Shown here: positions 16,360 through 44,455 of the stretch, one piece after another
Numbering within the stretch: the stretch's first letter is position 1
Layout of the letters: each line of letters opens with the position of its first letter
Origin: Ectopseudomonas oleovorans
GTDB taxonomy: Bacteria; Pseudomonadota; Gammaproteobacteria; Pseudomonadales; Pseudomonadaceae
Direction of reading: 5' to 3'
Length of the DNA: 64,000 nt
Assembly (NCBI RefSeq): GCF_003052605.1
Contig: NZ_QASO01000130.1
Span: 1 to 64,000, forward strand
Program-made: the position numbers and the translations under genes
Notes under the pieces: generated by a model
Seen by the model: only the letters and a program-made list of their open reading frames with translations
Databases searched by the model: none
Told to the model about the DNA's origin: nothing

Positions 16360-18918
<2,559 letters not shown>

Positions 18919-26327: not shown

Positions 26328-26383
26328 CTAGGGTCTGTTGCCGTTTCGACGCGAGCCGTGCGCGAAACGGCAACAGACCCTAG
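26328..26383. repeat. 21-bp perfect inverted repeat overlapping a stop codon
   Basis: Arms at 26328-26348 and 26363-26383 are perfectly complementary (starting CTAGGGTCTGTTGCCG) around a 14-nt loop. The right arm contains the stop codon of the lipoprotein gene on the minus strand (26380-26382). It probably ends transcription of that gene, though no T-run follows. Confidence 0.75.
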
Positions 26384-26802: not shown

Positions 26803-26926
26803 GGCGACTTCCTCGGTAGGGTTCAGACACCAGCCTACATCGGGAGGCTTGCAAAACCGAGGCGAAACGAGCGTATTCACGCACACAGGGCTGGAGACAA
26901 GCAACGCGATCAGCTAGCGTGACGGC

Positions 26927-27988: not shown

Positions 27989-28051
27989 AACTGCGGGGCA
28001 GATTGCCAGTCCAGCCTACTCAGGTTTCGCCCAACACCGGAGGTACAAGCG

Positions 28052-28282
28052 ATGCAACGACTGATTCCCGCCCTGGCCCTGATGCTTCTTGCTGGCGGCG
28101 CGCTGGCCGCGCCCAAGCCCTGCGAAGAACTCAAGCAGGAAATCGAAGTGAAGATTCAGGCCAACAACGTGCCCAGCTACACCCTGGAGATCGTGCCCAA
28201 CGGCGAAGTTCAGGATCAGAGCATGGTCGTCGGCAGCTGCGACGGCGGCACCAAGAAGATCGTCTATCAGCGCAACGGCTGA
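28052..28282 (+). CDS. DUF1161 periplasmic protein
   Basis: A 76-residue protein with a signal peptide (MQRLIPALALMLLAGGALAA). The mature part has two cysteines (KPCEELKQEIEVKIQAN and VVGSCDGGTKKIVYQR), typical of DUF1161 and likely forming a disulfide. A GGAGG ribosome site precedes the ATG. Function unknown. Confidence 0.87.
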   Translation: MQRLIPALALMLLAGGALAAPKPCEELKQEIEVKIQANNVPSYTLEIVPNGEVQDQSMVVGSCDGGTKKIVYQRNG

Positions 28283-28290
28283 TACACCCC

Positions 28291-28354
28291 CTGTAGGAGC
28301 GAGCTTGCTCATGAAGCTTTCGATTTCATTCGCGAGCAGAGCTCGCTCCTACAG
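28291..28354. repeat. GTAGGAGC-type inverted repeat
   Basis: Arms CTGTAGGAGCGAGCTTGCTC and GAGCAGAGCTCGCTCCTACAG enclose about 23 bp. It lies between two convergent genes (DUF1161 and the HAD phosphatase) and could serve as a bidirectional terminator. Related elements lie at 52681 and 58610. Confidence 0.7.
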
Positions 28355-28357
28355 TTT

Positions 28358-29005
28358 TCAGCAGATGAAGGCCCGGCGCATTTCCTCCAGCGTCTCGAAA
28401 TGAAAGTCCGGCGTCTCGCCGAGCAATTCCTCACGACTACCGAAGCCGTAACCGACCGCCACCGCCTGCAAGCCATTGCTGCGTGCGCCGATCAGGTCAT
28501 GCTTGCGGTCGCCGATCATCAGCGCCGAGCCGGGCGCCAGTCGTTCCGACTCCAACAGATGCGCCAGCAGCTCCACCTTGTTGGTGCGGGTGCCATCCAG
28601 CTCACTGCCATAGATGCGCGTGAAGTAGCGGTCGAAGCCGAAGTGCCGGGCGATTTCCTCGGCGAACACCGTCGGTTTGCTGGTCGCGATATACAGCGTT
28701 CGGCCCTGCGCCACCAGCGCCTCGAGCAGAGTTTCCACGCCGTCGAATACACGATTTTCGTACAGCCCGGTCACCCGGAAGCGCTCGCGGTAGTAATTGA
28801 CCGCCTGCCAGCCGGTGGCCTCATCCAGCGCGTAGGTGGCCATGAAGCACTGCAACAAGGGCGGGCCGATGAAATGCTCCAGCGCGGCCAGGTCCGGCTC
28901 GTCGATACCCAGCTTGGCCAACGCGTACTGCACCGAACGGGTGATGCCCTCACGCGGGTCGGTCAGGGTGCCGTCGAGGTCGAAGAGAATGGTGGAGTGA
29001 TGCAT
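28358..29005 (-). CDS. HAD-family phosphatase (Gph/5'-nucleotidase-like)
   Basis: A 215-residue haloacid dehalogenase-type hydrolase. Motif I is FDLDGTLTDP (nucleophile Asp and acid/base Asp), motif II TSKP, motif III the Lys in NKVELLAHLL, and motif IV MIGDRKHDLIGA. The helical cap between residues ~17 and 85 is the Gph/phosphoglycolate phosphatase type. The exact substrate is not known. Confidence 0.85.
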   Translation of the reverse strand: MHHSTILFDLDGTLTDPREGITRSVQYALAKLGIDEPDLAALEHFIGPPLLQCFMATYALDEATGWQAVNYYRERFRVTGLYENRVFDGVETLLEALVAQGRTLYIATSKPTVFAEEIARHFGFDRYFTRIYGSELDGTRTNKVELLAHLLESERLAPGSALMIGDRKHDLIGARSNGLQAVAVGYGFGSREELLGETPDFHFETLEEMRRAFIC

Positions 29006-29070
29006 GGCGGGCGCCTATTCGCAATCGGAACGGCCGCGAAGGATACCCGCCTTCAGCGCCCACTTCACGC

Positions 29071-30033
29071 TCAGGCATGCACCCGATAACCCCAGCGCAG
29101 CCCCAGCCGAGTGAACGGCCAGAGCAGCGCCAGCTGCAGCAAAGCGAACAGCCCCAGCAACACGAGGCTACCCGCGAAACCGAACCAAAGCGCTGCCAGC
29201 ACCAGGATCATGCCCAGCATCCCGCTGCAGAACCACAAGGCAAAGGTAATCAGACAGGCCAGCGCCAGCCGACCACCCTTGAACCCCAGCATCTGCGACG
29301 GCAACACCGAACGTGCGGCGAAGAAGGCGACCAGCAGGGACAAGCCGGCGCTGACCAGCCCGCTCAACCCCGCCCAGCCGTCGAGCACCTCATTTGCCAT
29401 ACCGCCCATCGACAGGCGTGTCACCAGTGCATTCAACTGTAGGTTGACCACCACCATGCCCAACGCAAAACACCAGGCCAGCGTGGTCGCCGACACCGGC
29501 AAGGCAGCCTCTGCCGGCCTGGCCTGGTGGCGAAACAGATGCAGCACCAGCCACAACGTCAACAACGCCTCGACGGTAAAACGCAACAGACCGACCAGCC
29601 ACCACAACCCAACACTGAGCAGGCCGCCAGCGCCGTAATGATCGAAATGCTCGTAAAGCCCCATGTGCAGGTAGCTCAGGGCATACCCCAGCGCCCAGGA
29701 CACCAGGAACCAGGCCACGCCATAGGCCAGCATAAGCGACGCGGATTGCGGGTAGTCCGCCAGGCCGTTGCGCTCCAGATAGACCAACGTCAACCAGTAA
29801 GCGGCCAACGCCGACAGCAGCAGGTGACTCAGCCAGAACGACACCGATTGACGCAACAAACTGACGTAGTCGACCTCATCGATCCGACCCCAGGTAATCA
29901 ATGTGATGACAATGCCGATCACCCCGACCGCCAAGGCAACCCAAGCCACGTGGCGCGGCAATGCCGGCCACTCGCCCGGACTGGAATTCACTGCCGCAGC
30001 CGGCAAAGGTTCGAAGGGATTGGCTTGGCTCAT
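29071..30033 (-). CDS. Multi-pass membrane protein, family not recognised
   Basis: A 320-residue protein with a ~30-residue soluble N-terminus (MSQANPFEPLPAAAVNSSPGEW) and about seven or eight hydrophobic segments, such as HVAWVALAVGVIGIVITLITW and SLMLAYGVAWFLVSWALGYALS. No catalytic or binding motif is evident. Start chosen at 30033, preceded by GGGAG; the frame is open to 30138. It is divergent from CRISPR array 1. Confidence 0.7.
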   Translation of the reverse strand: MSQANPFEPLPAAAVNSSPGEWPALPRHVAWVALAVGVIGIVITLITWGRIDEVDYVSLLRQSVSFWLSHLLLSALAAYWLTLVYLERNGLADYPQSASLMLAYGVAWFLVSWALGYALSYLHMGLYEHFDHYGAGGLLSVGLWWLVGLLRFTVEALLTLWLVLHLFRHQARPAEAALPVSATTLAWCFALGMVVVNLQLNALVTRLSMGGMANEVLDGWAGLSGLVSAGLSLLVAFFAARSVLPSQMLGFKGGRLALACLITFALWFCSGMLGMILVLAALWFGFAGSLVLLGLFALLQLALLWPFTRLGLRWGYRVHA

Positions 30034-30296: not shown

Positions 30297-30857
30297 CCTC
30301 ACTGCCGAATAGGCAGCTCAGAAATCGGCCAGTTGCGCCTGCAGCTCGCGCTGGCGCCTCACTGCCGAATAGGCAGCTCAGAAAATCAAAACCACAAGTA
30401 GCCCAACGGCGAAAAGCCTCACTGCCGAATAGGCAGCTCAGAAATGGGACACCAAAAGCAGCGTCTACGGACGTGGCCTCACTGCCGAATAGGCAGCTCA
30501 GAAAATGCCTGGCTCTGGAACCAGGCCGGATCGACGCCTCACTGCCGAATAGGCAGCTCAGAAAACGTCCCACGCTTTCATCACCAGCTGGGTTTTCCTT
30601 CACTGCCGAGTAGGCAGCTCAGAAATGGTCGAATCCGCCCAGCTCTACGCCCCGCCCCTTCACTGCCGAGTAGGCAGCTCAGAAATTCATGTGCGCGGCG
30701 CGTGGCTTGATCTTCTCCTTCACTGCCGAGTAGGCAGCTCAGAAAAAACGATCCTGGCTGTCCTGAAGGCTGGTCTTCTTCACTGCCGAGTAGGCAGCTC
30801 AGAAATGCACGCAGAGGCCGAGTCGCTGCGGACTGAGCTTCACTGCCGTATAGGCAG
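30297..30857 (+). CRISPR. Type I-F CRISPR array 1 (10 repeats, 9 spacers)
   Basis: 28-bp repeats start at 30297, 30357, 30417, 30477, 30537, 30598, 30658, 30718, 30778 and 30838. Spacers are 32 bp, except the fifth (33 bp). All keep the CTGCC/GGCAG stem cut by Cas6f. Repeats 1-5 share CCTCACTGCCGAATAGG, repeats 6-9 share CTTCACTGCCGAGTAGG, and the last has GCCGTATAGG and a decayed 3' end (CAGCCCGCC). The decayed repeat marks the leader-distal end, so the array reads left to right with its leader before 30297. It ends 62 bp before cas1. Confidence 0.97.
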
Positions 30858-30919
30858 CCCGCCACTTGGCAGCCACAAGCAAAAGGGCTTAACTGCCAGC
30901 ATTGTTTCAGGAGCCCCTC

Positions 30920-31888
30920 ATGGACGACATCAGCCCCTCCGACCTCAAGACCATCCTCCATTCCAAACGCGCCAACCTCTACTACCTGCAGCACTGCCGG
31001 GTGCTGGTCAACGGTGGGCGGGTGGAGTACGTCACCGATGCCGGCAAGCAGTCGCTGTACTGGAATATCCCCATCGCCAACACCACCACTATCCTCCTCG
31101 GCACCGGCACCTCGATCACCCAGGCGGCGATGCGTGAGCTGGCCAAGGCCGGCGTGCTGGTGGGTTTCTGTGGCGGTGGCGGCACACCGCTGTTCTCGGC
31201 CAACGAGATGGACGTGGAGGTCGCCTGGTTCTCGCCGCAGAGCGAGTACCGCCCCACCGAGTACCTGCAGAAGTGGGTAGGGTTCTGGTTCGATGACGGC
31301 AAGCGCCTGGAGGCGGCCAAAGCCTTTCAACTGGCGCGCCTGCAACGTATCCGCCAGGGCTGGCTGCATAGCCGGCCCTTGAAGGATGCCGGCTTCCAGG
31401 TCGACGCCACTGCCCTGGAAAATGCCCTCGATGCCTCGCAGCGCGCCATCATGGCGGCACCGGATAACACCTTCCTGCTTACTGAAGAGGCCCGCCTGAG
31501 CAAGCAACTGTTCGCCCTCGCCGCCCGTGCCGTCAGCTATGGCGACTTCACCCGCGCCAAGCACGGCTCCGGCGGCGACCCGGCCAACCGTTTTCTCGAC
31601 CACGGTAATTACCTGGCCTACGGCCTGGCCGCCAGCGCCACCTGGGTGCTCGGCATCCCTCATGGCCTGGCCGTGCTGCACGGCAAGACGCGGCGCGGCG
31701 GCCTGGTGTTCGACGTGGCCGACCTGGTCAAGGACGCGACCATCCTGCCGCAAGCTTTCGTCAGCGCCGTGCGCGGCGACGAGGAACAGGAGTTTCGCCA
31801 GGCCTGCATCGAAAACCTCACCCGTGGCGAGTCACTGGACTTCATGATCGACACCCTCAAGGCCGTGGCCGAGCAGGTTGGCGCATGA
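30920..31888 (+). CDS. cas1: CRISPR-associated endonuclease Cas1 (type I-F)
   Basis: A 322-residue Cas1, the integrase that inserts new spacers. The N-terminal beta domain begins LKTILHSKRANLYYLQHCRVLVN. The C-terminal helical domain carries the metal ligands Glu in LLTEEARLSKQLF, His in GIPHGLAVLHGK and Asp in GLVFDVADLVKD. The ATG at 30920 follows CAGGAG. The gene overlaps cas2-3 by 4 bp (ATGA). In type I-F, Cas1 works as a complex with the Cas2-3 fusion. Confidence 0.97.
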   Translation: MDDISPSDLKTILHSKRANLYYLQHCRVLVNGGRVEYVTDAGKQSLYWNIPIANTTTILLGTGTSITQAAMRELAKAGVLVGFCGGGGTPLFSANEMDVEVAWFSPQSEYRPTEYLQKWVGFWFDDGKRLEAAKAFQLARLQRIRQGWLHSRPLKDAGFQVDATALENALDASQRAIMAAPDNTFLLTEEARLSKQLFALAARAVSYGDFTRAKHGSGGDPANRFLDHGNYLAYGLAASATWVLGIPHGLAVLHGKTRRGGLVFDVADLVKDATILPQAFVSAVRGDEEQEFRQACIENLTRGESLDFMIDTLKAVAEQVGA

Positions 31889-34800
31889 ATGTGCTGCTGA
31901 TCGCCCAGTGCGACAAACGCGCCCTGGTGGAGAGCCGGCGCATCCTCGACCAGTTCGCCGAGCGCCGCGGCGAGCGCACCTGGCAAACGCCGATCACCCA
32001 GGCCGGGCTGGATACCCTGCGCAAGCTGTTGAAGAAGAGCGCCAGGCGCAATACCGCCGTGGCCTGCCACTGGATCCGCGGCAAGGATCACAGCGAACTG
32101 CTGTGGATAGTCGGCGATGCCAGCCGCTTCAACGCTCAGGGCGCGGTGCCGACCAACAGCACCCGCCGCGACGTATTGCGCAAGGATGACGAGAACGACT
32201 GGCACAGCGCCGAGGATCTTCACCTGCTCAGCACCCTGGCCGCGCTACTGCATGATCTGGGCAAAGCCAGCCTGGCCTTCCAGAATCGCCTCAAACCTGG
32301 CGCGCCCATGGAGCGCAACCTGTATCGCCACGAATGGACATCGCTGCGTCTGTTCCAGGCCTTCGTCGGCAACGACGACGACCCGACCTGGCTGGCGCGC
32401 CTGGCCAACCCCAGCGAGCAGGATGACGCCAGCTGGTTGAGCCGCCTGCAACGCGACGGCCTCGACCCCGACTGCGACAAGCCCTTTCGCCACCTACCGC
32501 CCCTGGCCGCCGCCCTGGCCTGGCTGGTACTGACCCATCACCGCCTGCCCCTGATGCCCAGCGAGGACACGCGCCTGGGCAGCAAGATCCGCCACTTCCA
32601 GCTGGGCATGCTGAAGAACCTGCCAGGAGATATCGACGCCAGCTGGAACGAGCACTGCACCACCCAGGACAGGGCGCAGATCGAACCTTACTGGCACTTC
32701 CCCCACGGCCTGCCCGTGACCACCGAGCGCTGGCGCAAACGGGCCAGCAAGCAGGCCCAACGTCTGCTCGCCCTACTGCCACGCCGCCCACAGCGCGACT
32801 GGCTAGGCAGCCCCTACCTGATGCACCTGGCACGCCTGAACCTGATGCTCGCCGACCACCACTATTCCAGCCTCACCGGCCCAGGCCGGGTGCAGGGCGA
32901 GGCGGGCTATCCGCTGTGGGCCAATACCGAGCGCAAAAGCGGCAAGTTCAACCAGGGCCTCGACGAACATCTGCTGGGGGTCGAGGCCAATGCCGGGCTG
33001 ATCGGCCATCGCCTGACCGACTTCGAGCGCAGCCTGCCACGCCTGAGCCGGCACAAGGGCTTGAAGAAGCGCAGCGGCAACGAACGCTTTCGTTGGCAGG
33101 ACAAGGCCTTCGACCTGGCCGCCGGCATGCGCGAACAGGCTGCTCGGCACGGTGCGTTCATCGTCAATATGGCCTCCACCGGTTGCGGCAAGACCCTGGG
33201 CAATGCACGCATCATGTATGCCCTGAGCGACCCCGAGCGCGGCATGCGCTGTGCCTTCGCCCTTGGCCTGCGCAGCCTGACCCTGCAAACCGGGCGCGCC
33301 TTCCGCCAACGCCTTCGACTGGACGAGGATGACCTGGCCATTCGCGTCGGTGGCGCGGCCAACAGTACCTTGTTCGAGCACCAGCAGGCGCTCGCCGAAC
33401 GCAGCGGCTCGGCCTCCAGCCAGGCACTGTTCGAAGACGATGGTCATGTACGCTTCGACGGCAATGTGGACGCCCATCCGCTGCTCAACAAGGTGATCCA
33501 CGAACCCCAGGTGCGCGCCCTGCTGATCGCGCCGGTACTGGTCTGCACCATCGACCACCTGACCCCTGCCACCGAGAGTCAGCGCGGCGGGCGACAGATA
33601 GCGCCCATGTTGCGCCTGATGAGCGGCGACCTGGTGCTCGACGAGCCGGACGATTTCGATATCGCCGACCTGCCTGCCCTGGCGCGTCTGGTGCATTGGG
33701 CCGGGCTGCTGGGCAGCCGCGTGCTACTGTCCTCAGCCACCCTGCCGCCCGCCCTGACCCAGGGTTTGTTCGAGGCCTATCGCGCCGGGCGTGTCGAGTA
33801 TCAGCATCATCGTGGCGAACGCCCTGGCGAGCTGCCGGCCATCGCCTGTGCCTGGGTCGATGAACAGCGACAAAGCCGCCTGGACTGTAGCGACAGCGCC
33901 AGTTTCAGCGCCGCCCACCTGGACTTCGCCCAACGCCGCCACGCCTGGCTCGCGACGCAGCCCACGCGCCGCCAGGCGCAACTGCTGCCGCTGCGCTTTG
34001 CCAGCCAGCGCCCGGAGGAGATTCGCCAGGCTTTCGCCGAGCAGATACTGACCGCCGCCCGCAGCCTGCACGACACCAACGCCACAACCGACCCGCACAG
34101 CGGCAAGCGCGTAAGCTTCGGCATGGTACGCATGGCCAATATCGAGCCCCTGTTCGATGTGGCCCTGGCGTTGTTCCGTCTGGGTGCGGCCGCCGGCACG
34201 CGGATTCACCTGTGCGTCTACCACTCGCAATTTCCTTTGCTGCTGCGCTCGGCCATCGAGAGTCGGCTGGATGCCACCCTCAAACGTGAGCAGCCCGATG
34301 CGGTATTCGCACTGCCGGAGATTCGCCAACGCCTGGAGCGCTTCGACGAGCCGGAGCAGCTGTTTATCGTGCTCGGCTCGCCGGTCACCGAAGTGGGCCG
34401 CGACCATGATTACGACTGGGCACTGGTCGAACCCTCCTCCATGCGCTCGCTGATCCAGTTGGCCGGGCGCGTGCGGCGCCATCGCCCCGAGCCCTGGAGC
34501 ACAACCAATGTGCAGATATTCGACAGCAACCTGCGCCATGCCGAACGGCGCGACCAGCCAGCTTTCTGCAAACCCGGTTTCGAGACGGAACACCCCTGGC
34601 GGCTGAACAGCCATCGTCTGGACAGGCTGCTGGAAGCCGAGCAATACCAACGGATCGACGCCCGCCCGCGCATTCTCGAACGCCCCGCGCCACTGGATGC
34701 CAAGGGCAACCTGGTCGATCTGGAACACGCGCGCCTGCAAGGCTGGATGCTGCAACCCGCCGCACCCGACCCGGCCACGCTGTCAGAGCGCGAACGGCGG

Positions 34801-35235
34801 CGGCAAAGCAGCCAGCCGCGTGAAATGAATGCCCATGACGGCTGGAGCCAGCCGCTGTTGCACCTCACGGCCCTGGCCCAGCAGCAACAACCCTTTCGCC
34901 TCGACACCCAGCCAAAGGTCGAGCTGATCTTGCTGCCGGACGAAGACGATGAGGATTACCAGCTACACCGCATCGACCCCGGCCAGCGCCGCTACGAGCA
35001 AATCTACGTGCCGGTGGAAAACAGCCTGCACCAGCGCATCGCCGACAGCGAACTGGCCGGACCGCGCATCAGCCCCTGGGGTGCTACCGACTACCTCCAG
35101 GCCTTGTCTGAACTGGCACAGGAGCTGGACATGAGTCTGGAGGGCTGCGCCAAGCGCCTCGGCACCGTCAGTCTGCCCGAGAGCGAGCGAGGCTGGCGCT
35201 TTCACCCCGCGCTGGGCTTTGCCAAACGCAGGTGA
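31885..35235 (+). CDS. cas3: Cas2-Cas3 fusion helicase-nuclease (type I-F)
   Basis: An 1116-residue fusion typical of type I-F. Residues 1-~95 are Cas2 (MNVLLIAQCDKRALVESRRIL). The HD nuclease starts near residue 118 with ALLHDLGKASLAFQNRL (His123-Asp124) and later LTHHRLP. The helicase has Walker A STGCGKT (about 430-436), the DExD-type box LVLDEPDD (about 585), motif III LLSSATLPP and motif VI QLAGRVRRHR (about 858-867). All catalytic motifs look intact. It degrades DNA recruited by the Csy complex and takes part in adaptation with Cas1. Confidence 0.97.
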   Translation: MNVLLIAQCDKRALVESRRILDQFAERRGERTWQTPITQAGLDTLRKLLKKSARRNTAVACHWIRGKDHSELLWIVGDASRFNAQGAVPTNSTRRDVLRKDDENDWHSAEDLHLLSTLAALLHDLGKASLAFQNRLKPGAPMERNLYRHEWTSLRLFQAFVGNDDDPTWLARLANPSEQDDASWLSRLQRDGLDPDCDKPFRHLPPLAAALAWLVLTHHRLPLMPSEDTRLGSKIRHFQLGMLKNLPGDIDASWNEHCTTQDRAQIEPYWHFPHGLPVTTERWRKRASKQAQRLLALLPRRPQRDWLGSPYLMHLARLNLMLADHHYSSLTGPGRVQGEAGYPLWANTERKSGKFNQGLDEHLLGVEANAGLIGHRLTDFERSLPRLSRHKGLKKRSGNERFRWQDKAFDLAAGMREQAARHGAFIVNMASTGCGKTLGNARIMYALSDPERGMRCAFALGLRSLTLQTGRAFRQRLRLDEDDLAIRVGGAANSTLFEHQQALAERSGSASSQALFEDDGHVRFDGNVDAHPLLNKVIHEPQVRALLIAPVLVCTIDHLTPATESQRGGRQIAPMLRLMSGDLVLDEPDDFDIADLPALARLVHWAGLLGSRVLLSSATLPPALTQGLFEAYRAGRVEYQHHRGERPGELPAIACAWVDEQRQSRLDCSDSASFSAAHLDFAQRRHAWLATQPTRRQAQLLPLRFASQRPEEIRQAFAEQILTAARSLHDTNATTDPHSGKRVSFGMVRMANIEPLFDVALALFRLGAAAGTRIHLCVYHSQFPLLLRSAIESRLDATLKREQPDAVFALPEIRQRLERFDEPEQLFIVLGSPVTEVGRDHDYDWALVEPSSMRSLIQLAGRVRRHRPEPWSTTNVQIFDSNLRHAERRDQPAFCKPGFETEHPWRLNSHRLDRLLEAEQYQRIDARPRILERPAPLDAKGNLVDLEHARLQGWMLQPAAPDPATLSERERRRQSSQPREMNAHDGWSQPLLHLTALAQQQQPFRLDTQPKVELILLPDEDDEDYQLHRIDPGQRRYEQIYVPVENSLHQRIADSELAGPRISPWGATDYLQALSELAQELDMSLEGCAKRLGTVSLPESERGWRFHPALGFAKRR

Positions 35236-35278
35236 GATTCCCCTACACCCTGCGCGGCGTGTAGCAGGGCTACAGCAT

Positions 35279-35334
35279 CGCGGCTAAAGCCCCTCCCACA
35301 GCATTGAAGACCTGTGGGAGGGGCTTTAGCCGCG
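35279..35334. repeat. 22-bp inverted repeat after cas2-3
   Basis: Arms at 35279-35300 and 35313-35334 are perfectly complementary (CGCGGCTAAAGCCCCTCCC at the start of the left arm). The same sequence occurs at 50967-51022. It separates convergent cas3 and hipA and probably terminates both. Confidence 0.8.
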
Positions 35335-35366
35335 ACTCCGTTGGGTAGGAACCGTGATGTCAGCAG

Positions 35367-36632
35367 CTAACTATCAATCCGAAAATCCCCATGCAGCGCC
35401 CGCCAGTGCTCACGCAATACGGCCTTGTGCGCCTCATGCATGGGGCTATCGCGCAGGGCTGCCGGCCATAGCGCGCGAGCCTTATCGATGGCGGCCTTGA
35501 GGTTGTAGAGAATCGGCGACTCCGGCAGATCCGCGCGCTTGGCCCAACGCCGGAAGTGCTCGAGCGATACCTCATACCACTGCTTGGTCTGCGCCATGTT
35601 CAGCGCGTAGTGCTGCTCGGCAGGGATATAGGCCTTGGTGAAGAGGATGTCGTAGGCCGGCGACAGCACCGGGTTCACGCCATCGGGATAGAGAATGCTC
35701 CAGTTCTTCAGATGCGCATCGCCGTTGCCCAACAGGATGTTGACCAGCAAGCGCACAGCCATCTGCACCACGTCACGCTGGCCGCTGTAGGTGTTCTGAT
35801 AGATCAGCCGGGCGATCTGTTCGTAACTGGCCCTCTGGTACTTGTCCGCCGCATAGGCGAACAGCACCTGGGCGAAGTCCTCGGCATGCACGCGCTTGCC
35901 CTCGGCCCGGTCGAAGCGGCGGATGCCATAGGCATAGCCTTCATCCGGCAGCTTGATCTGCGGCAGACGCTCGAGCTTGTCGAGTTCTACCAGACGGATT
36001 TCCGGTATATCCACGCCGGCCAGTGCCGCAAGGTGCATGCAGGTATATTCGTTGAGCGGTACATGATCATGCACCGTGGAGGGCGTCTTGATGATCCAGT
36101 CACCGGGCGCCGCCGTATCCCCCAATTGGTAACGGCCATCGCGCTGGTGCATGGAAAACTTCATCTGCACCCCGGCCAGGGAAAAATGCGCCACCCGGTC
36201 CACGGTAGCCACCGCCACTCGGTCGAGCCGCCCACGGTCACCGAAGGCCGCATCCGGGATAGCCTCGGCAGCAACCGGCTCGGCGATTAGCGCACCGGGC
36301 AGGTCGCCGCCCAGGTGTACCAACAGCGGGAACTCGTTGTGCTCATGGACCTTCAAGCGCTGGGCCAGCAGTTGGCGCAGCGCGCCTTCGGGCAGCAGGT
36401 TGCTCAGCAGCGGGTGCAACTGCATATTGGTCACCACCGGGAAACTCTTGCCAGCACGGGTCGCGAAAGTGGCCGGGTTGGCCAGTGACAGGGTCAGCGC
36501 GGGGCGGTTGGCATCCTCAACAAACGACGGCGCCAGCGACAACACCGTGCGGTTATGTGCATAGCCGGCCACGTAACCCACCAACTGCCCATGCAGCGTC
36601 AACCTGAGTGCCGAAACCTGCTCGCCGGCCAT
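35367..36632 (-). CDS. hipA: HipA-like serine/threonine kinase toxin
   Basis: A 421-residue HipA-family kinase. Visible features are the N-terminal beta domain (GQLVGYVAGY), the P-loop-like segment HFSLAGVQMKFS with Ser151 at the autophosphorylation site of E. coli HipA, the ATP-binding Lys182 (WIIKTPS), the catalytic loop LLGNGDAHLKNWS (Asp305, Asn310) and the metal-binding Asp328 (AYDIL). All key residues are present. E. coli HipA phosphorylates GltX and induces persistence; this target is unknown. The start overlaps the hipB stop by 1 nt (TGATG). It lies inside the cas locus, opposite to it. Confidence 0.93.
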   Translation of the reverse strand: MAGEQVSALRLTLHGQLVGYVAGYAHNRTVLSLAPSFVEDANRPALTLSLANPATFATRAGKSFPVVTNMQLHPLLSNLLPEGALRQLLAQRLKVHEHNEFPLLVHLGGDLPGALIAEPVAAEAIPDAAFGDRGRLDRVAVATVDRVAHFSLAGVQMKFSMHQRDGRYQLGDTAAPGDWIIKTPSTVHDHVPLNEYTCMHLAALAGVDIPEIRLVELDKLERLPQIKLPDEGYAYGIRRFDRAEGKRVHAEDFAQVLFAYAADKYQRASYEQIARLIYQNTYSGQRDVVQMAVRLLVNILLGNGDAHLKNWSILYPDGVNPVLSPAYDILFTKAYIPAEQHYALNMAQTKQWYEVSLEHFRRWAKRADLPESPILYNLKAAIDKARALWPAALRDSPMHEAHKAVLREHWRALHGDFRIDS

Positions 36633-36973
36633 CAGTCGTCACCCAGGTCTTGCCAGGGGTCTTCGATAGTTTCCTTGACGCCCGCACCAGGCGCAGACGA
36701 TGGCGAGCGATCCACGGCGTAGTTCTGTTGCGCCCTGGCGGGGCCGGCCTCCAGCAGTTGCTCGACCTGACGTGCCAGCTCCTTGGGGATCAGCATCAGC
36801 GTGGCGTCCAGGCCTTCGGCGATCTTGTCCAGGGTAGCCAGGCTGGGGTTACCGTCTTTCTCGATCTTGCCGTACTGCTGGCGATTCAACCCCACCCGCA
36901 ACGGCATATCCGTACCTTTCAGGCCAAGCTGCAGGCGTCGGCGTTTGATCTGGGTCAGCACTGTACTGCGCAT
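36632..36973 (-). CDS. hipB: HipB-like antitoxin and autorepressor
   Basis: A 113-residue protein with an HTH_3 (Xre/Cro-type) domain at about residues 5-60 (IKRRRLQLGLKGTDMPLRVG, LNRQQYGKIEKDGNPSLATLDKIAEGL) and an acidic C-terminal tail ending DPWQDLGDD. It would neutralise HipA and repress the operon. The ATG at 36973 is preceded by GAGGTAG. It is divergent from csy1, and the region between them is rich in inverted repeats that suit a dimeric repressor. Confidence 0.9.
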   Translation of the reverse strand: MRSTVLTQIKRRRLQLGLKGTDMPLRVGLNRQQYGKIEKDGNPSLATLDKIAEGLDATLMLIPKELARQVEQLLEAGPARAQQNYAVDRSPSSAPGAGVKETIEDPWQDLGDD

Positions 36974-37221
36974 GGGCTACCTCACTCGCTCTATCCAGAG
37001 TGCAGCATATAAGGCTCTATTGGATAAAAAGAGCCTTATATGCTGCAAATAAATCTACTTGAAGCTTATGAGCTTCACTAGTATTTATTTGCAGTATAAA
37101 TGCTGCTTTTAAAGCTAATGCAGCATAAAAGGCTCAATGCTCTGGATCAGACGGGCAGTCAAGATTAGTGGCAAAACAATGCTACTTTTTGTGTTGCCTC
37201 CCAGCATAAGGATTTGTCGCT
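36974..37221. promoter_or_regulatory. hipB/csy1 divergent control region with repeated operators
   Basis: A strikingly AT-rich 248 bp. TGCAGCATATAAGGCTC (37001-37017) and its exact complement (37031-37047) form a 17-bp perfect inverted repeat. A second inverted repeat of 24-bp arms (37043-37066 and 37071-37094) is nearly perfect. TGCAGCATAAAAGGCTC recurs at 37119-37135, with a degenerate reversed half near 37095-37108. This looks like three or four binding sites for one dimeric regulator, most simply HipB. Both the hipBA and the csy promoters must lie here or overlap it. Confidence 0.75.
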
Positions 37222-38583
37222 ATGCACAGCCCTTCCCCTGGCCGACGACAGGCCATCCGCAGCCTGATCGAGCGCTTTATCGCCGAGCGTCTGACCACCA
37301 AGCTCGAAGGCCTGGCCGATGATGACCCCAAGCGCGCCACCCTGCTTGCCCAATTCGCCCCGGACGTATGGCTGGAAGATGCCGCTCGCCGCGCCGGGCA
37401 GATCCAGGCGGTGACGCATACGCTCAAAGCCATTCACCCGGACGCCAAGGGCACCAACCTATATTGTTTGCCGAACAGCTTGCCGCAACATGCGCTGGTC
37501 GGCAGCCATTGCCTGGGCGACGACTTTGCCGGCGATGTGGTGGGCAATGCCGCCGCGCTGGATGTCTACAAGCTGCTCAAGCTGGAGCACGACGGCCAGA
37601 CACTGCTCGACCTGCTGCTGGCCGCAGATGCCGATGCCATTGCCGCGCTGCATACAGATGACGAGCAGGCCCGGAGTCTGGCCGCAGCCTTTACCGGCAT
37701 CACCCGCGCGCGCGACGGCCTGGCCTCCCACACCTACGGCAAGCAGCTGTACTGGCTGGTCGGCGATGATCCGCGCAACGATGAGCACTACCATCTGCTC
37801 GCCCCGCTGTATGCCAGCTCGCTGGCGCATCGGGTGTATCAGGAGATCCAGGCCGACCGCTTCGGCGAGCCGGCCAAGGAAGCGCGCCAGGCACGACGCG
37901 ACAATCAGTTTCACCCTGGCGTGATCCACGAATACCCCGACCTGGCCGTGCAGAAGCTCGGCGGCACCAAACCGCAGAACATCTCCCAGCTCAACAGCGA
38001 ACGGCGTGGCGACAACTACCTGCTCGCCTCCCTGCCGCCAAGCTGGCAGCCGCGCGATGTGCGCCTGCCGATCCGTACCCGTGACGGTTCGATTTTCCCC
38101 GCTTTCGGCCAGCGCCCGGCAGTGGCCGAACTGGTGCGCACCCTGCGCGACTTTCTGCTCAGCGGCCCACCAGCGAACGTGCACACCCGCAACAGCCGCG
38201 ATGAACTGCTCACCGAGCTGATCGACGAATTGCTGTTGTACGCCGTCGAGCTTTGGGCCTTCGAGCCCGGCTGGTCGGCCAAGCCCGAGTGCAACCTCAA
38301 CCGCGCCGAGCAGCTGTGGCTGGATTTCCGCCGCGCCGAGCACGACGCCATCTTCGCCAGCGAATGGCGACGCATGGAGTGGCTCACGGAAATTCGCGAG
38401 CGCTTCGCCAACTGGCTCAATGCGCGGCTGGTCAGCAAGCTTTCGGTCGGTGATGTGGAAAACAGCTACTGGGCCAAACAGGCCGGCAGCAATGCCCTGT
38501 GGCTCGACCTCGACTGGCTGAACCGGGCCTGGGTCGAACAATTCGAGCGCGAGCAACGCGACCTGGAGGCCGAACATGAGTGA
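37222..38583 (+). CDS. csy1: Type I-F Csy complex subunit Csy1 (Cas8f)
   Basis: A 453-residue large subunit of the I-F interference complex, which helps recognise the PAM and binds the 5' end of the crRNA with Csy2. Recognisable family segments include the N-terminal IRSLIERFIAERLTTKLEGL and the central LGGTKPQNISQLNSERRGDNYLLASLPP. The ATG at 37222 has AAGGA upstream. It begins the csy operon and overlaps csy2 by 8 bp. It is slightly longer than the P. aeruginosa protein. Confidence 0.95.
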   Translation: MHSPSPGRRQAIRSLIERFIAERLTTKLEGLADDDPKRATLLAQFAPDVWLEDAARRAGQIQAVTHTLKAIHPDAKGTNLYCLPNSLPQHALVGSHCLGDDFAGDVVGNAAALDVYKLLKLEHDGQTLLDLLLAADADAIAALHTDDEQARSLAAAFTGITRARDGLASHTYGKQLYWLVGDDPRNDEHYHLLAPLYASSLAHRVYQEIQADRFGEPAKEARQARRDNQFHPGVIHEYPDLAVQKLGGTKPQNISQLNSERRGDNYLLASLPPSWQPRDVRLPIRTRDGSIFPAFGQRPAVAELVRTLRDFLLSGPPANVHTRNSRDELLTELIDELLLYAVELWAFEPGWSAKPECNLNRAEQLWLDFRRAEHDAIFASEWRRMEWLTEIRERFANWLNARLVSKLSVGDVENSYWAKQAGSNALWLDLDWLNRAWVEQFEREQRDLEAEHE

Positions 38584-39577
38584 GCTGCCCACCTCCAACG
38601 GCCTGCTGATCGTCCCCCACCTGCGGGTGCAGAACGCCAACGCCATTTCCAGCCCGCTGACCTGGGGCTTCCCCGCCATCAGCGCCTTTATCGGCCTGAT
38701 GCAGGCCGTCGAACGCAAGCTCGAGGGTCGCTTCGCTCTGATGTTCGACAGCGTCGGGGTGGTCTGCCATAGCCATGACACCCAGGTCACCGGGGGCTAT
38801 CAACGCGCCTTCCGCCTGACCCGCAACCCGGTCAACGAGCGCGGTGAAACCGCCGCCATCGTCGAAGAGGGGCGCATCCACCTGGATATCACGCTGATCT
38901 TCGGCGTCAGCGGCTATAGCGAAGACGGCCAGCCAGACCCGGTGCAGGGCGACTGGCAAAAGCGCCGCACGATCGCCGCTGAAATCGCAAATCTGCTGGG
39001 CAGCATGCGTATCGCCGGCGGTAGCGTGTTCCTCGATCCGCAGCACCAGCCGGTACTGGAGCCATTGGCACAAGGCGAGGAGCGCAGCAAGCAGTTCCGC
39101 CGCCTGCGTCGCCGCTGGTTGCCGGGCTTCGCCCTGGTCAGCCGCGACGACCTGCTACAGACCCACCTGCAACATCTGCAGGCCGACAACGCCAGCGCCG
39201 ATCTGCTCGATGGCTGGCTCGACCTTTCACGCCTGAACCTGCGCGCCCAGGAAGCCCGCCCGGCCAGCGAAAGCCAGCCTGCCAAAGTCGAGTGGCGCGC
39301 CCAGCGCGTAATGCCCAACGGCTGGCTGGTGCCGATCCCGGTCGGCTATGGCGCCCTCGGCCCAATGCAAGCCGCCGGCAGCGTGGCCAACGCGCGGGAC
39401 GGACAAACCCCGCTGCGTTTCGTTGAAAGCCTCTACTCCATCGGCCAATGGCTCAGCCCGCACCGGCTGCGCGATGTCGATGACCTGCTCTGGTACGCCA
39501 GCGCCGATCCCCAGGCCGGCCTGTACCGCTGCCACAACCTCTACAGCCAAACCCTCTGCACTGATGACATGGAGTGA
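38576..39577 (+). CDS. csy2: Type I-F Csy complex subunit Csy2 (Cas5f)
   Basis: A 333-residue Cas5-type RAMP subunit that pairs with Csy1 at the crRNA 5' handle. The N-terminus [32 protein letters not shown] and the C-terminal [12 protein letters not shown] segment are typical. It overlaps csy1 by 8 bp and ends 5 bp before the csy3 ATG. Confidence 0.95.
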
Positions 39578-39582
39578 CCATC

Positions 39583-40602
39583 ATGACCACCACCCCTCTG
39601 AAAACTGCTTCCGTCCTGGCCTTCGAGCGCAAGCTCGACCCTTCCGATGCGCTGTTTCATGCCGGTGACTGGCAGACGCGCGACACCTGGCAACCGCTCG
39701 CCGTGCGGGAAAAATCCGTGCGCGGCACCATCTCCAATCGCCTCAAGGCCAAAGACCAAGACCCAGCCAAGCTCGACGCCGCCATCGAGAACCCCAACCT
39801 GCAGACCGTCGACGTCGCGGCCCTGCCGCATGACGCCGACACGCTGCGCGTCAGCTTCACCCTGCGCGTACTCGGTGGTGCCGGCACGCCCTCAGCCTGC
39901 AACGATGCCGCCTACCGACAGAAGCTGCTGGATACCGTGCAGAGCTACGTCGCCAGCCACGGCTTCGCTGAACTGGCACGCCGCTACGCACACAACCTGG
40001 CCAATGGTCGCTTCTTGTGGCGCAACCGTATCGGTGCTGAACAGATAGAGGTACAGATTGCCCACCTGGTCGATGGCAAAGCGGCCAAGCAGTGGAGCTT
40101 CGATGCGCTGAGCCTTTCCCTGCGCAACTTCGACGCCAGCGGCCCGGCGGCCACAGCGCTGGACGAACTGGCCAAGCTGATCGCTGCCGGCCTGAGCGGC
40201 GAGCGTCACCTGCTGCTGGGCATCACCGCGTACGTGCGTATGGGCGCCGGCCAGGAGGTCTTCCCTTCCCAGGAGCTGATCCTCGACCGGGGCAAGGGCG
40301 ACAAGAGCAAGACCCTGTACAGCGTCGACGGCGTCGCCGGGATGCACTCGCAGAAACTCGGCAATGCCCTGCGCACCATCGACACCTGGTATCCGGACGC
40401 TGGCGAACTCGGCCCCATCGCCGTCGAACCCTACGGCTCGGTCACCACCGAAGGCCGCGCCTATCGCCAACCCAAGGCCAAGGCGGACTTCTACAACCTG
40501 CTGGACAACTGGCTGCTCAAGGACAAAGTGCCCAGCATCGGTGACCAGCATTTCGTCATGGCCACCCTGATTCGCGGTGGCGTGTTTGGCGAGGCGGGCT
40601 AG
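39583..40602 (+). CDS. csy3: Type I-F Csy complex backbone subunit Csy3 (Cas7f)
   Basis: A 339-residue Cas7-type backbone protein, six copies of which coat the crRNA spacer. Strong family blocks are [54 protein letters not shown] and the C-terminal [16 protein letters not shown] then AVEPYGSVT. The ATG at 39583 is spaced 8 bp from GGAG; the frame also opens with a GTG at 39574. Confidence 0.97.
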
Positions 40603-40604
40603 CC

Positions 40605-41168
40605 ATGAACCATTACCTCGACCTGAAACTGCTGCCCGACCCAGAATTTCCGGCCACGCAGTTGATGAGCGCCCTGCTCGCCAAGTTGCACCGAGGCCTG
40701 CATGACCTGCGTCGTAGCGATGTGGGCATCAGCTTCCCGGATGTGGAAACGGCGGGCCACGGCCTCGGCACCCGCCTGCGCCTGCATGGCAGTGCCGAAG
40801 CGCTGGATCGGCTGATGGCGCTGAACTGGCTCAGCGGCATGCGCGACCACTTGAACCTGGGTGAACTGGCGCCCATCCCGGCGAAGGTGCGCTGGCGCTG
40901 CGTCAGCCGCGTACAGGTGGACAGCAACCCGGAGCGCGCCCGCCGCCGCCTGATCAAGCGCCACGGCATCAGCGAAGCAGAGGCGCGCCAGCGCATCCCC
41001 GACAGCGCCGGCAAACGCTGCGACCTGCCTTATGCCACCTTGCGCAGCAACGGCAGCGGTCACAGCTTCCGCCTGTTTATCCGCCACGGCCCACTGCTCG
41101 ACAAACCCACCCCCGGCACCTTCGGCGCCTACGGCCTTAGCGCCCAGGCCAGCGTGCCCTGGTTCTGA
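40605..41168 (+). CDS. csy4: CRISPR pre-crRNA endoribonuclease Csy4 (Cas6f)
   Basis: A 187-residue Cas6f that cuts the repeat hairpin and stays bound to the crRNA 3' end. Its N-terminus (MNHYLDLKLLPDPEFPATQL) and its end (RLFIRHGPLL, then GLSAQASVPWF) match P. aeruginosa Csy4 closely. The catalytic His lies in LLAKLHRGLHD (His29), and the Arg-rich helix ERARRRLIKRHG contacts RNA. It starts 2 bp after csy3 and is followed by the array 2 leader. Confidence 0.97.
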   Translation: MNHYLDLKLLPDPEFPATQLMSALLAKLHRGLHDLRRSDVGISFPDVETAGHGLGTRLRLHGSAEALDRLMALNWLSGMRDHLNLGELAPIPAKVRWRCVSRVQVDSNPERARRRLIKRHGISEAEARQRIPDSAGKRCDLPYATLRSNGSGHSFRLFIRHGPLLDKPTPGTFGAYGLSAQASVPWF

Positions 41169-41298: not shown

Positions 41299-43180
41299 GT
41301 TCACTGCCGTGTAGGCAGCTCAGAAAGTGGTGCAAACGCGCCTGCCGCTCGATGCCGGGTTCACTGCCGTGTAGGCAGCTCAGAAAAGCGGCAGATCTAC
41401 GTGCCGGCCGGGCCGTCGGTTCACTGCCGTGTAGGCAGCTCAGAAAATTGAAAGCTACGTGGCGGCCGCGACTACCGCGTTCACTGCCGTGTAGGCAGCT
41501 CAGAAAATGGGGCAAGGCCCGCGCCGTCGACGGTGTGCGTTCACTGCCGTGTAGGCAGCTCAGAAAACCTCGCCGGACGTGCCAGACCATACCGAGAAGT
41601 TCACTGCCGTGTAGGCAGCTCAGAAATTGCCAATCCTGATTTTTCGAGCACATGGGACGTTCACTGCCGTGTAGGCAGCTCAGAAAAGGCATTGCTGAAC
41701 CCATCGTGCCGGGCAGCCGTTCACTGCCGTGTAGGCAGCTCAGAAAAGCTTCGGGAAGCGCTTGTGGCGAATTGAATCGTTCACTGCCGTGTAGGCAGCT
41801 CAGAAAGGCAGGAGTAACCTGGCCACCTGGGAACTCATGTTCACTGCCGTGTAGGCAGCTCAGAAACTGCGCAACGGCCTCGGCCAGCGGGCTGATGCGT
41901 TCACTGCCGTGTAGGCAGCTCAGAAAATCACGGCCAACGGCGGTACCTTCGCCGACGAGTTCACTGCCGTGTAGGCAGCTCAGAAAATCAACTGGGGCGT
42001 GATCAAGGCCGGCAACGTGTTCACTGCCGTGTAGGCAGCTCAGAAAAGGACGGGCGAGGAATGATGTTGCTGAAAAGCGTTCACTGCCGTGTAGGCAGCT
42101 CAGAAATTGCGCGCCGGCTTGGGGTTGTAGATCAGCCGGTTCACTGCCGTGTAGGCAGCTCAGAAATGACCGACGAGAACGACGGCGGCGGTCGCGCCGT
42201 TCACTGCCGTGTAGGCAGCTCAGAAATGGTTCACCCTGGCCACCGTGCGTGCACTGGAGTTCACTGCCGTGTAGGCAGCTCAGAAAACGCCCTGCGCGTA
42301 GTTGCAGTACCTGCCTCGGTTCACTGCCGTGTAGGCAGCTCAGAAAATAAGGCGGCGACTAGGGATTCCAGTCGCGTCGTTCACTGCCGTGTAGGCAGCT
42401 CAGAAATCCAGCTCCGCCAACTGATCGTCTGTAATACTGTTCACTGCCGTGTAGGCAGCTCAGAAAGTCTAAGGCGAAGTCTGGCTCGGGCAGCTCAGGT
42501 TCACTGCCGTGTAGGCAGCTCAGAAAGTGGCCGAAGCGGAGAAGGTGCTGATGGCCATGTTCACTGCCGTGTAGGCAGCTCAGAAATGGTCACGGATCTG
42601 GTTCAGGGTCATGGATTTTGTTCACTGCCGTGTAGGCAGCTCAGAAAATGAAACGGCCTGCGCTCCAGCCACAAATCCAGTTCACTGCCGTGTAGGCAGC
42701 TCAGAAATGGGCGATGGTGGCGAGGATGGCGCCGATGGTGTTCACTGCCGTGTAGGCAGCTCAGAAAAGCAGCAGCCAGTGCGCGGCAATCCGTCGGCAG
42801 TTCACTGCCGTGTAGGCAGCTCAGAAACCGTCCAGAACGCGAACTGCAGCAGGTTTCGGGTTCACTGCCGTGTAGGCAGCTCAGAAAATGCTAACCACAA
42901 CGGCGAGGCGAAACGAGGAGTTCACTGCCGTGTAGGCAGCTCAGAAAATGGGTTGGTCGGCGGCGGTGCTGGTGGCAGCGTTCACTGCCGTGTAGGCAGC
43001 TCAGAAATGGTCGATGAAGACCAGGACTTTGTCCGGGTTGTTCACTGCCGTGTAGGCAGCTCAGAAATAGCACCGGCGAAGTTTGCCCCCCTGGCGATGG
43101 TTCACTGCCGTGTAGGCAGCTCAGAAATGCTGCAGAACGCGTTGCATCCGCTTGCGCTCGTTCACTGCCGTGTAGGCAGC
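41299..43180 (+). CRISPR. Type I-F CRISPR array 2 (32 repeats, 31 spacers)
   Basis: 28-bp repeats begin GTTCACTGCCGTGTAGG and end CAGCTCAGAAA. They start at 41299 and then every 60 bp to 42559 (22 repeats), then at 42620 and every 60 bp to 43160 (10 repeats). Spacers are 32 bp, except the 22nd (33 bp). All full repeats read as identical. The last (43160-43180) loses its 3' end after GGCAGC and marks the leader-distal end. No spacer is repeated or shared with array 1 by eye. Long open frames through this region are translation artefacts of the repeats. Confidence 0.98.
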
Positions 43181-43294
43181 AATTTGCGCGCACTTCGCTT
43201 CGCTCCTGAGCCCGCCCTACGCAAAAATCCGTGTCCGGAACCAAGCCGCCGGTCTAAGCGGAATCGCAGATACGACTCGCTGCCGCACGGACTT

Positions 43295-43795
43295 TCAGGT
43301 GTCCAAACTACGAAACATCACATGGCAATCCACCAGGCCATACCGGGCGTGGCGGTAGGCCTTGGGCAAGGTGCCGACTATCGCGAAGCCGTGTTTCTGC
43401 CACAGCGCGACCGCGACCTCGTTGGTGGCCACCACGCTGTTGAACTGCATGGCGCTGAAGCCCAATTCACGCGCCACCTGCAGCGAATGGGCGCAGAGCC
43501 GGCTGGCGATGCCGCGGCCACGGGCGGCCGGGGCGGTCATATAGCCGCAGTTGCACACGTGGTCACCCGGCCCAGCGGCATTGGCCTTGATGTAGTAGGT
43601 GCCGAGAATCTGCCCGTCCTGCTCGGCAACGAAGGTGGCGCGCGGCAGTTCGACCCAGGTTTTCCAGGCCGTCTCACGATCCATGTTCGGGTCGAAGGCG
43701 TAGGTTTCCTGCGCCTGCACCACGTCACGGATGATCGGCCAGACCTGGTCGAAATCGGCTGCCTCGATGGGCCGGATGATCAGTTCATCGCTCAC
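43295..43795 (-). CDS. GNAT-family N-acetyltransferase
   Basis: A 166-residue GCN5-related acetyltransferase. The acetyl-CoA binding motif APAARGRGIASRLCAHSLQVARELGF is visible, followed by ATNEVAVALWQKHGFAIVGTLP near the C-terminus. The GTG start overlaps the stop of the gamma carbonic anhydrase gene upstream (GTGA), so the two are coupled. Substrate unknown. It is convergent with CRISPR array 2 and marks the right edge of the CRISPR locus. Confidence 0.87.
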   Translation of the reverse strand: MSDELIIRPIEAADFDQVWPIIRDVVQAQETYAFDPNMDRETAWKTWVELPRATFVAEQDGQILGTYYIKANAAGPGDHVCNCGYMTAPAARGRGIASRLCAHSLQVARELGFSAMQFNSVVATNEVAVALWQKHGFAIVGTLPKAYRHARYGLVDCHVMFRSLDT

Positions 43796-44334
43796 TGGTC
43801 GTAGCCTTCGGCCAGGTGCAGATCCTTGAGTTTCACGTAGTTGCCGGCCGTGTAGCTGAAGAAGTTGCGTTCCTTGTCGGTCAGCGGGCGCGCCTGTTTC
43901 ACTGGGCTGCCGACGTAGAGATAGCCACTTTCCAGGCGTTTGCCCGGCGGCACCAGCGAGCCTGCGCCGATGATCACCTCGTCCTCGACCACCGCGCCGT
44001 CCATGACGATGCTGCCCATGCCGACCAAAATCCGGTTGCCCAGGGTGCAGCCGTGCAGGGTGACCTTGTGCCCGACGGTCACTTCGTCACCGATGATCAG
44101 CGGGTAACCATCGGGGTTGAACGGCCCGGCGTGGGTGATGTGCAGCACGCTGCCGTCCTGCACGCTGGTACGCGCGCCAATACGGATGCGGTGCATGTCG
44201 CCACGGATCACGGTCATCGGCCAGACCGAGCTGTCCTCACCCAGTTCGACATCACCGATGACCACGGCGGAGGCGTCGACGAAGACGCGCGCACCCAGTT
44301 GGGGGAGGTGTTGCTGGTATTTGCGAATCGCCAC
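43792..44334 (-). CDS. Gamma carbonic anhydrase-like hexapeptide protein
   Basis: A 180-residue left-handed beta-helix protein of the gamma carbonic anhydrase family (CaiE/YrdA type). It has hexapeptide repeats (VIGDVELGEDSSVW, VEDEVIIGAGSLV) and the metal-binding histidines in SVLHITHAGPFNP and GHKVTLHGCTLG. The start at the GTG 44334 (AGGAG upstream) gives the usual MAIRKYQQHLP N-terminus. It is divergent from prlC, as is common in Pseudomonas. Enzyme activity is not guaranteed for this subgroup. Confidence 0.88.
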   Translation of the reverse strand: MAIRKYQQHLPQLGARVFVDASAVVIGDVELGEDSSVWPMTVIRGDMHRIRIGARTSVQDGSVLHITHAGPFNPDGYPLIIGDEVTVGHKVTLHGCTLGNRILVGMGSIVMDGAVVEDEVIIGAGSLVPPGKRLESGYLYVGSPVKQARPLTDKERNFFSYTAGNYVKLKDLHLAEGYDQ

Positions 44335-44455
44335 GATAGAGGCTCCTGGGCTGCGGGAAAGCTTGATTGTAATTAAGATGGCCCCCATATCGACTGCAAT
44401 CGTCCTGGGATTTTCCCCGGCGCAGCCTCTCTTCCTTCGCCACAGGTGCCTCGTC

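Follow-up and report, generated by a model that had tools for sequence, protein, structure and literature searches.

Why does a HipBA toxin-antitoxin (TA) pair lie in reverse orientation among the cas genes of a type I-F clustered regularly interspaced short palindromic repeats (CRISPR) locus? The question is raised by a stretch of 64,000 nucleotides from Ectopseudomonas oleovorans (assembly GCF_003052605.1, contig NZ_QASO01000130.1, positions 1 to 64,000), here called the window, in which hipA and hipB occupy the gap between cas2-3 (cas3 for short) and csy1. The initial annotation of this DNA proposed that the pair guards the Csy complex by analogy with CreTA. The explanation favored here, with slightly better than even confidence, is a self-sufficient hipBA that has its own operators and derives from a single ancestral insertion, and whose HipB probably co-controls csy1-4.

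On this explanation, a type II hipBA cassette with its own HipB operator array would have inserted between cas3 and csy1 a single time, in the lineage's ancestor, and would since then have been inherited mostly together with the I-F locus. HipB alone would neutralize HipA and repress the cassette, with no need for the Csy complex. The insertion would separate csy1-4 from the cas1-cas3 transcription unit, so that csy1-4 would have to start in the divergent hipB-csy1 region. Because most of that region consists of operator-like boxes, HipB (or HipAB) probably lowers csy1-4 along with hipBA, and loss of HipB would release both.

The HipBA pair and its locus

The window contains a complete I-F locus, comprising array 1, cas1, cas2-3, csy1-4, and array 2, as identified by a repeat finder, Pfam, and PADLOC. 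cas1, cas2-3, and csy1-4 all exceed their Pfam cut-offs and the repeats are of the I-F kind, which places the locus in type I-F. The stop codon of cas3 lies at 35235 and the start of csy1 at 37222, and both hip genes lie between them on the minus strand. The reversed placement described in the initial annotation is thus borne out by coordinates and Pfam. The parts of the locus are as follows.

30297-30865, plus strand: CRISPR array 1, I-F type repeats, the last degenerate (repeat finder, repeat pattern)
30902-31888, plus strand: cas1 of type I-F (Pfam; PADLOC Cas1f, 4.2e-153)
31885-35235, plus strand: cas2-3 of type I-F (Pfam, PADLOC)
35278-35335, no strand assigned: hairpin of 24 pairs between the convergent cas3 and hipA stop codons (fold of 35236-35340, z-score -8.4), presumably resembling a Pseudomonas repetitive extragenic palindromic (REP) element
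35367-36632, minus strand: hipA, kinase-type toxin of 421 amino acids (Pfam HipA_C and Couple_hipA; PDB relatives; key residues)
36632-36973, minus strand: hipB, helix-turn-helix (HTH) antitoxin and repressor of 113 amino acids, overlapping the hipA start by 1 base (Pfam HTH_3, translation)
37222-38583, plus strand: csy1 (cas8f) (Pfam, 7.6e-140)
38576-39577, plus strand: csy2 (cas5f) (Pfam)
39574-40602, plus strand: csy3 (cas7f) (Pfam)
40605-41168, plus strand: csy4 (cas6f) (Pfam)
41299-43187, plus strand: CRISPR array 2 (repeat finder, repeat pattern, spacer analysis)

By sequence, the protein pair is an ordinary HipBA. HipA matches both HipA domains (HipA_C, 6.9e-48; Couple_hipA, 3.9e-15), and hipB, which encodes an HTH antitoxin, is directly upstream of hipA, as in type II HipBA systems. 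HipA carries Ser151, Lys182, Asp305, Asn310, and Asp328 at the positions named in the initial annotation, and the surrounding motifs are identical in all eight lineage copies. HipB also retains its HTH, as had been noted (HTH_3, 3.6e-8). By analogy with E. coli HipA, Ser151 is the autophosphorylation site, Lys182 contacts ATP, Asp305 and Asn310 are catalytic, and Asp328 binds metal. HipA is only distantly related to solved structures, the best being HipT (2.4e-16), followed by 4pu3 (2.8e-12) and 3tpd (1.5e-5), which we take to be the Shewanella and E. coli HipA structures. The hipA gene is under purifying selection, with dN/dS values of 0.08-0.15 in all 28 pairs among the eight lineage copies. 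HipA is predicted to be toxic and HipB to neutralize it, and the pair, conserved in its placement, is probably active.

Conservation in the lineage

A HipA search in a sample of 199 genomes of the genus gave nine positives at E <= 1e-60. Four of these, the window included, have HipA at about 90% identity or above, always between cas3 and csy1; the 16 kb examined around the other five, at 61-63%, is free of cas genes (5/5). A wider scan of genome contigs yielded 29 HipA loci, five of them at 90% or more: three in full I-F loci (Pseudomonas oleovorans DSM 1045, P. alcaliphila, and P. composti) and two in decayed ones (Pseudomonas sp. P818 and P. guguanensis). The remaining 24 loci, at 61% or less, showed no cas match in the surrounding DNA examined (24/24).

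Removal of duplicates leaves eight lineage genomes, six with complete I-F loci and two with decayed ones. hipBA lies between cas3 and csy1 in all six complete genomes: the window, P. oleovorans DSM 1045, P. alcaliphila, P. composti, and two further genomes, G078 and G113. Every complete locus found with this Csy1 type (90% or more) carries hipBA (6/6), and the six form one group in a Csy1 tree of 83 rows, with a Shimodaira-Hasegawa approximate likelihood ratio test (SH-aLRT) value of 100. Two loci were left out of this tree, namely L190, whose csy1 was misread, and the one on a Vitreoscilla plasmid. Since six complete I-F genomes share the arrangement and hipA is under purifying selection, the arrangement goes beyond chance. 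The placement of hipBA is real, conserved, and selected, and the search of I-F loci for hipBA at cas3-csy1 (6/6 complete lineage loci) shows no accident of one genome.

Operator-like boxes and probable control of csy1

Upstream of hipB, 16-bp palindrome-like boxes form what appears to be a multiple-operator array. They are listed with a further repeat that lies closer to csy1; no strand is assigned to any of them.

37002-37017: operator-like box 1, GCAGCATATAAGGCTC (box motif scans)
37031-37046: operator-like box 2, the exact reverse complement of box 1 (box motif scans)
37061-37076: operator-like box 3 (box motif scans)
37091-37106: operator-like box 4, containing TATAAA, a tentative csy1 -10 element at 37095-37100 (motif and promoter scan)
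37120-37135: operator-like box 5 (box motif scans)
37170-37198: imperfect inverted repeat GGCAAAACA...TGTGTTGCC just before csy1, largely conserved (alignment)

Six other lineage loci carry six boxes at spacings of 29, 30 or 31, 26, 30, and 30, a fixed register of 26-31 bp, and an extra out-of-register match occurs in the window, P. composti, and G113. In the scan with a looser consensus, from which locus L012 was excluded, shuffled sequences average 0.3-0.5 matches and reach at most 3. A stricter consensus was built from the boxes of non-CRISPR homologs, with the window's boxes already known when it was written. It finds 2-4 sites before hipB in seven of the eight lineage loci and none in P. 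guguanensis, with shuffled means of 0.04-0.30, and 2-4 sites in all seven non-CRISPR homologs. The same consensus finds no site in two outgroup hipBA, two HipBA-2 upstream regions, the cas1 upstream region, or two other csy1 gaps. In the plasmid relative pF061_1, three boxes stand 30 bp apart and two further matches are stray, for a total of five, where shuffles reach up to four. Because non-CRISPR homologs also carry boxes and the control regions do not, the array most likely belongs to hipBA and arrived with it.

The array fills most of the hipB-csy1 region and stops 86 bp short of csy1. In the window, a weak csy1 promoter candidate, TTCAC[AT]-15-TATAAA, overlaps box 4, and it sits in the same place in four of the seven loci scanned, which makes control of csy1 by HipB plausible. 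HipB may therefore also control csy1-4, and shared control of hipBA and csy1-4 is the best testable link to CRISPR. HipB binding to the boxes and a separately controlled csy1 transcript are predictions from these motifs.

Several observations weigh against this reading. The looser consensus was drawn from these very boxes, and it finds just 2 sites in four of the seven non-CRISPR homologs, a count that some shuffles match or exceed. The interval 35100-37400 contains no sigma-70 consensus promoter, and the csy1 candidate is only weak. A promoter outside the boxes could fit into the 86 bp that separate the last box from csy1, in which case HipB might not touch csy1. A single insertion with joint inheritance must also accommodate discordant synonymous divergence (dS). 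The hipA of G113 is more diverged from the window (dS 0.57) than its cas genes are (0.26-0.35), and hipA of the decayed loci (L013 and L015) has a dS of 0.11-0.13 relative to the window, compared with 0.40-0.57 for a flanking gene (a carbonic-anhydrase-like gene at 43792-44388, named by eye). This discordance indicates that the cassette has also recombined on its own, hinting at exchange between species.

As to its source, 92 of 72,556 plasmid records carry HipA relatives, the best being that of P. aeruginosa pF061_1 at 68.9%, and a phage collection contains no HipA relative at 1e-20. A plasmid-borne cassette is a likely source. These plasmid relatives and the chromosomal ones with no cas gene nearby argue that the pair works outside CRISPR.

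The cas3-csy1 gap as a recurrent cargo site

How unusual is an insertion at this position? Csy1 searches were positive in 15 of 398 genomes at genus level, 21 of 298 at family level, 45 of 341 at order level, and 31 of 369 at class level (overlapping sets), and the lineage loci were added to these. The cas3-csy1 gap could be measured in 96 of the 100 survey loci; L075, L137, L195, and L199, which have no cas3 upstream of csy1, were dropped. Two Csy1 genomes, G1059 and G1193, lie outside the survey, and one genome contributes both L069 and L070. Fifteen of the 96 loci have gaps of at least 900 bp, six in the window's lineage and nine elsewhere. With L151 set aside for a scaffold gap of Ns, eight readable long gaps remain outside the lineage, and six of these hold toxin or TA genes. 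Their cas3-csy1 contents are as follows.

L066: HipBA of another type, HipA 31%
L127: RelE and an HTH gene
L128: CcdAB
L133: PaaA2-type antitoxin, its partner unclear and perhaps broken
L163: Fic
L190: PIN and MazE-like genes, VapBC-like
L074: Mutator transposase
L132: unassigned and ankyrin genes

TA presence at the gap amounts to six changes on the Csy1 tree, with L190 and Vitreoscilla not counted. Csy1 relatives also occur on 13 of the 72,556 plasmid records, all of which were examined, two of them being unannotated. Vitreoscilla filiformis pVF1 (L230) carries VapC, an XRE gene, and a CreA-like pair in the cas3-csy1 gap, Acetobacter pasteurianus pAP22518-1 carries an IS3 transposase there, and an unannotated Caballeronia plasmid record has a short gap with no TA gene. 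In I-F loci, toxin modules recur at this gap, and HipBA is one of several kinds of cargo.

When all junctions are measured with one script, gaps of 700 bp or more occur at cas3-csy1 in 14 of 96 loci and at cas1-cas3 in 4 of 90, and at none of the csy1-csy2 (0/99), csy2-csy3 (0/59), and csy3-csy4 (0/57) junctions. The cas1-cas3 cargo consists of a PIN and VapB pair (L141), Bro-N genes (L139 and L154), and an HTH_11 gene (L140), which rules out that cargo is exclusive to cas3-csy1. L139 and L140 combine cargo at cas1-cas3 with a CreA-like pair at cas3-csy1.

One account of these data is that the junctions around cas3 merely tolerate insertions and that hipBA is a selfish TA pair, a neutral passenger with no link to CRISPR. 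The distribution of cargo over the junctions is what would be expected if least harm decides, transposases lie in the same gap in G190 and on pAP22518-1, and hipBA remains after cas loss. However, toxin or TA genes fill six of the eight readable long gaps outside the lineage and a transposase only one, and the same gap is the known site of CreTA, according to the portion of PMC10097628 consulted. A neutral passenger is thus a possible explanation, though well short of a probable one.

CreA-like repeat pairs are common in this gap across Gammaproteobacteria. Where the gap measures 60 bp or more, 27 of 70 loci score 36 or more (for example L139, L136, L140, L162, and L187), compared with at most 35 for shuffles and at most 33 for csy1 coding stretches. 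A CC-flanked seed target lies in the same gap for 25 of the 27 pairs (shuffled P <= 0.015). Seed position 6, a mismatch at which the scoring tolerated, is mismatched in 20 of the 25 targets, the rate given by an unread base, and positions 1-5 and 7 are mismatched in none. An unread position 6 is expected for type I guides. The ccdAB of L128, the paaA2-type gene of L133, and the Fic gene of L163 lie downstream of a CreA-like element in the same orientation, so that they may be co-transcribed with it; in L127 and on Vitreoscilla pVF1, the order is cas3, TA genes, CreA-like element, an opposite indication.

A broader reading can be offered only tentatively, as doubtful rather than probable. The junctions around cas3, above all cas3-csy1, may be a general guard slot into which protein TA modules (HipBA, CcdAB, VapBC, RelE with HTH, PaaA2, and Fic) are repeatedly recruited beside or instead of the RNA module CreTA. 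Their repressors or a nearby CreA would tie toxin control to csy1-4, so that loss or inhibition of CRISPR would be penalized in several layers, and the HipB operator array would be the coupling element in the window's lineage.

Two side observations concern related loci. A second HipBA type lies after the CRISPR array in G113 (L058, 17754-19288), and a similar pair lies in the cas3-csy1 gap of G013 (L066, 6921-8458). In L066 and L071, Cas1 is 93-95% identical to that of the window, with Cas3 at 53% and Csy1 at 48%; their adaptation and effector parts seem to have been exchanged separately.

Decayed and empty sites

What becomes of hipBA when the cas genes are lost? Pseudomonas sp. P818 and P. 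guguanensis occupy the window's chromosomal site, their flanks matching window positions 26382-29140 or 29566, and 43303-46785. Between the flanks, the blastn match is limited to hipBA, its upstream region, and the start of csy1 (35367-37646 and 35367-37759), and cas1, cas3, and csy2-4 are gone from the site. P. guguanensis keeps a single repeat (27/28) behind hipA with no second repeat nearby, and the P818 site has no repeat matching 19 or more of 28 positions. In both genomes the hipA and hipB frames are open and full-length and the key motifs are kept. A whole-genome search for Csy3 was negative in both (0/2; the completeness of the P818 genome is not stated). hipBA can thus outlive the cas genes. 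The initial expectation that hipBA follows intact csy genes holds in one direction, since all six complete loci have hipBA, and fails in the other, since two of the eight hipBA copies stand without csy.

In 14 flank-matched genomes, among the matches listed for the right-hand flank, no hipBA or cas gene lies in 18 kb at the site; two of them, G054 and G013, have a I-F system elsewhere in the genome. At the window's site, an orphan array of four repeats remains in G063, and G008 retains a single repeat with a leader-like stretch (L214 and L218), with no cas gene or hipBA there. From these traces, losses of the whole locus seem possible, although an earlier presence of hipBA there is not known, and the entire locus can probably vanish together with hipBA. 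In G248, the CRISPR site holds two copies of a stretch matching window 43308-43477, one on either side of about 5 kb of other sequence (L217, 11968-12137 and from 17053), which looks as if an element integrated there.

These sites bear on the idea of positional addiction, in which a HipBA placed in the middle of the I-F locus would penalize deletion of the entire locus in a single step. In E. coli, HipB decays faster than HipA, which is the premise of this idea. P818 and P. guguanensis fit it in having lost both sides of the locus with hipBA left in the middle. The traces in G063 and G008 and the absence of hipBA and cas from all 14 flank-matched genomes speak against it, and positional addiction is unlikely.

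An unlikely Csy-dependent guard

In the accessible text of PMC10097628, CreTA of Acinetobacter lies between cas3 and csy1 of I-F loci, and about 19 further modules are described. The analogy drawn in the initial annotation stands as regards the slot, which is the same. The other part, that repression of the toxin depends on the Csy complex, is not supported, since hipBA stays full-length in P818 and P. guguanensis with no csy2-4 at the site and no Csy3 genome-wide.

The detector used for CreA recovers the published CreTA of Acinetobacter LoGeW2-3 (score 48/56, seed run 13) and finds no CreA-like repeat pair in the cas3-csy1 gaps of the window, L012, L014, L157, or L058. Within the lineage, such a pair occurs only in G078 (L057), between hipB and csy1, with a CC-flanked seed target (shuffled P 0.015) that lies within the same insert as the pair and not at hipBA. 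A comparison of 39 array spacers with 34801-38000 gives eight CC-flanked seed matches with runs of 7-8, none in the hipB-csy1 region, and all 40 array spacers give no CC-flanked seed match of run 6 or more in 36974-37221. On this evidence, a guard in which the Csy complex represses hipBA and Csy loss frees HipA is very unlikely.

A repeat search of the window's own genome finds one mini-CRISPR outside the arrays. It has two repeats (L212, 5657-5732; G000:C34, about 18656-18731) in a region that is prophage-like by eye, and its spacer begins TATGAGCTA, nine bases identical to the CreA-like spacer of G078. The spacer matches at 37067 without CC and has no CC-flanked target in the window's gap, and the phage collection contains no match to the stretch. 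The mini-CRISPR may be a phage-borne CreA mimic or an RNA anti-CRISPR.

Relation to known systems and significance

Like other type II HipBA systems, the pair has a two-domain HipA kinase with conserved residues, an HTH protein HipB encoded in front of it, overlapping genes, and several operator-like sites upstream. It differs in lying inside a cas operon and in sharing the operator-like array divergently with csy1. As described in the part of PMC10097628 available, CreTA is likewise a toxin module in this position of a cas locus; it consists of RNA alone, and the Csy complex uses CreA to repress it, whereas the window has two proteins and no CreA. CrePA, covered in the available sections of a review of TA-CRISPR coupling (PMC12737573), resembles HipBA in linking a protein toxin with CRISPR. 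There, CreP is under a CRISPR RNA (crRNA)-like RNA, whereas HipBA has its own protein antitoxin and operators. The evolution of CreA is the subject of PMC9458426, to judge from its accessible text. In Bacteroides fragilis, an orphan three-repeat CRISPR lies upstream of hipAB with no adjacent cas genes, and its authors speculate that the repeats regulate hipAB (PMC5704556, in the portion available); the window instead has a full cas locus and a gap without repeats.

The literature searched, which left subscription papers largely outside its scope, contains no account of a protein TA module, hipBA or otherwise, between cas3 and csy1, and the accessible portions of PMC3150331 and PMC7725324 contain nothing on hipBA in this gap. 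What is new is that protein TA modules recur in a gap where that literature has only the RNA module CreTA.

Judging from the survey, protein TA modules from several families are drawn to this one gap across Gammaproteobacteria, and surveying it is a fast way to find further CRISPR-linked toxins. Natural pairs of loci make the question of whether TA cargo stabilizes CRISPR directly testable. For the window's lineage, the prediction is that one antitoxin would govern both the toxin and the interference genes.

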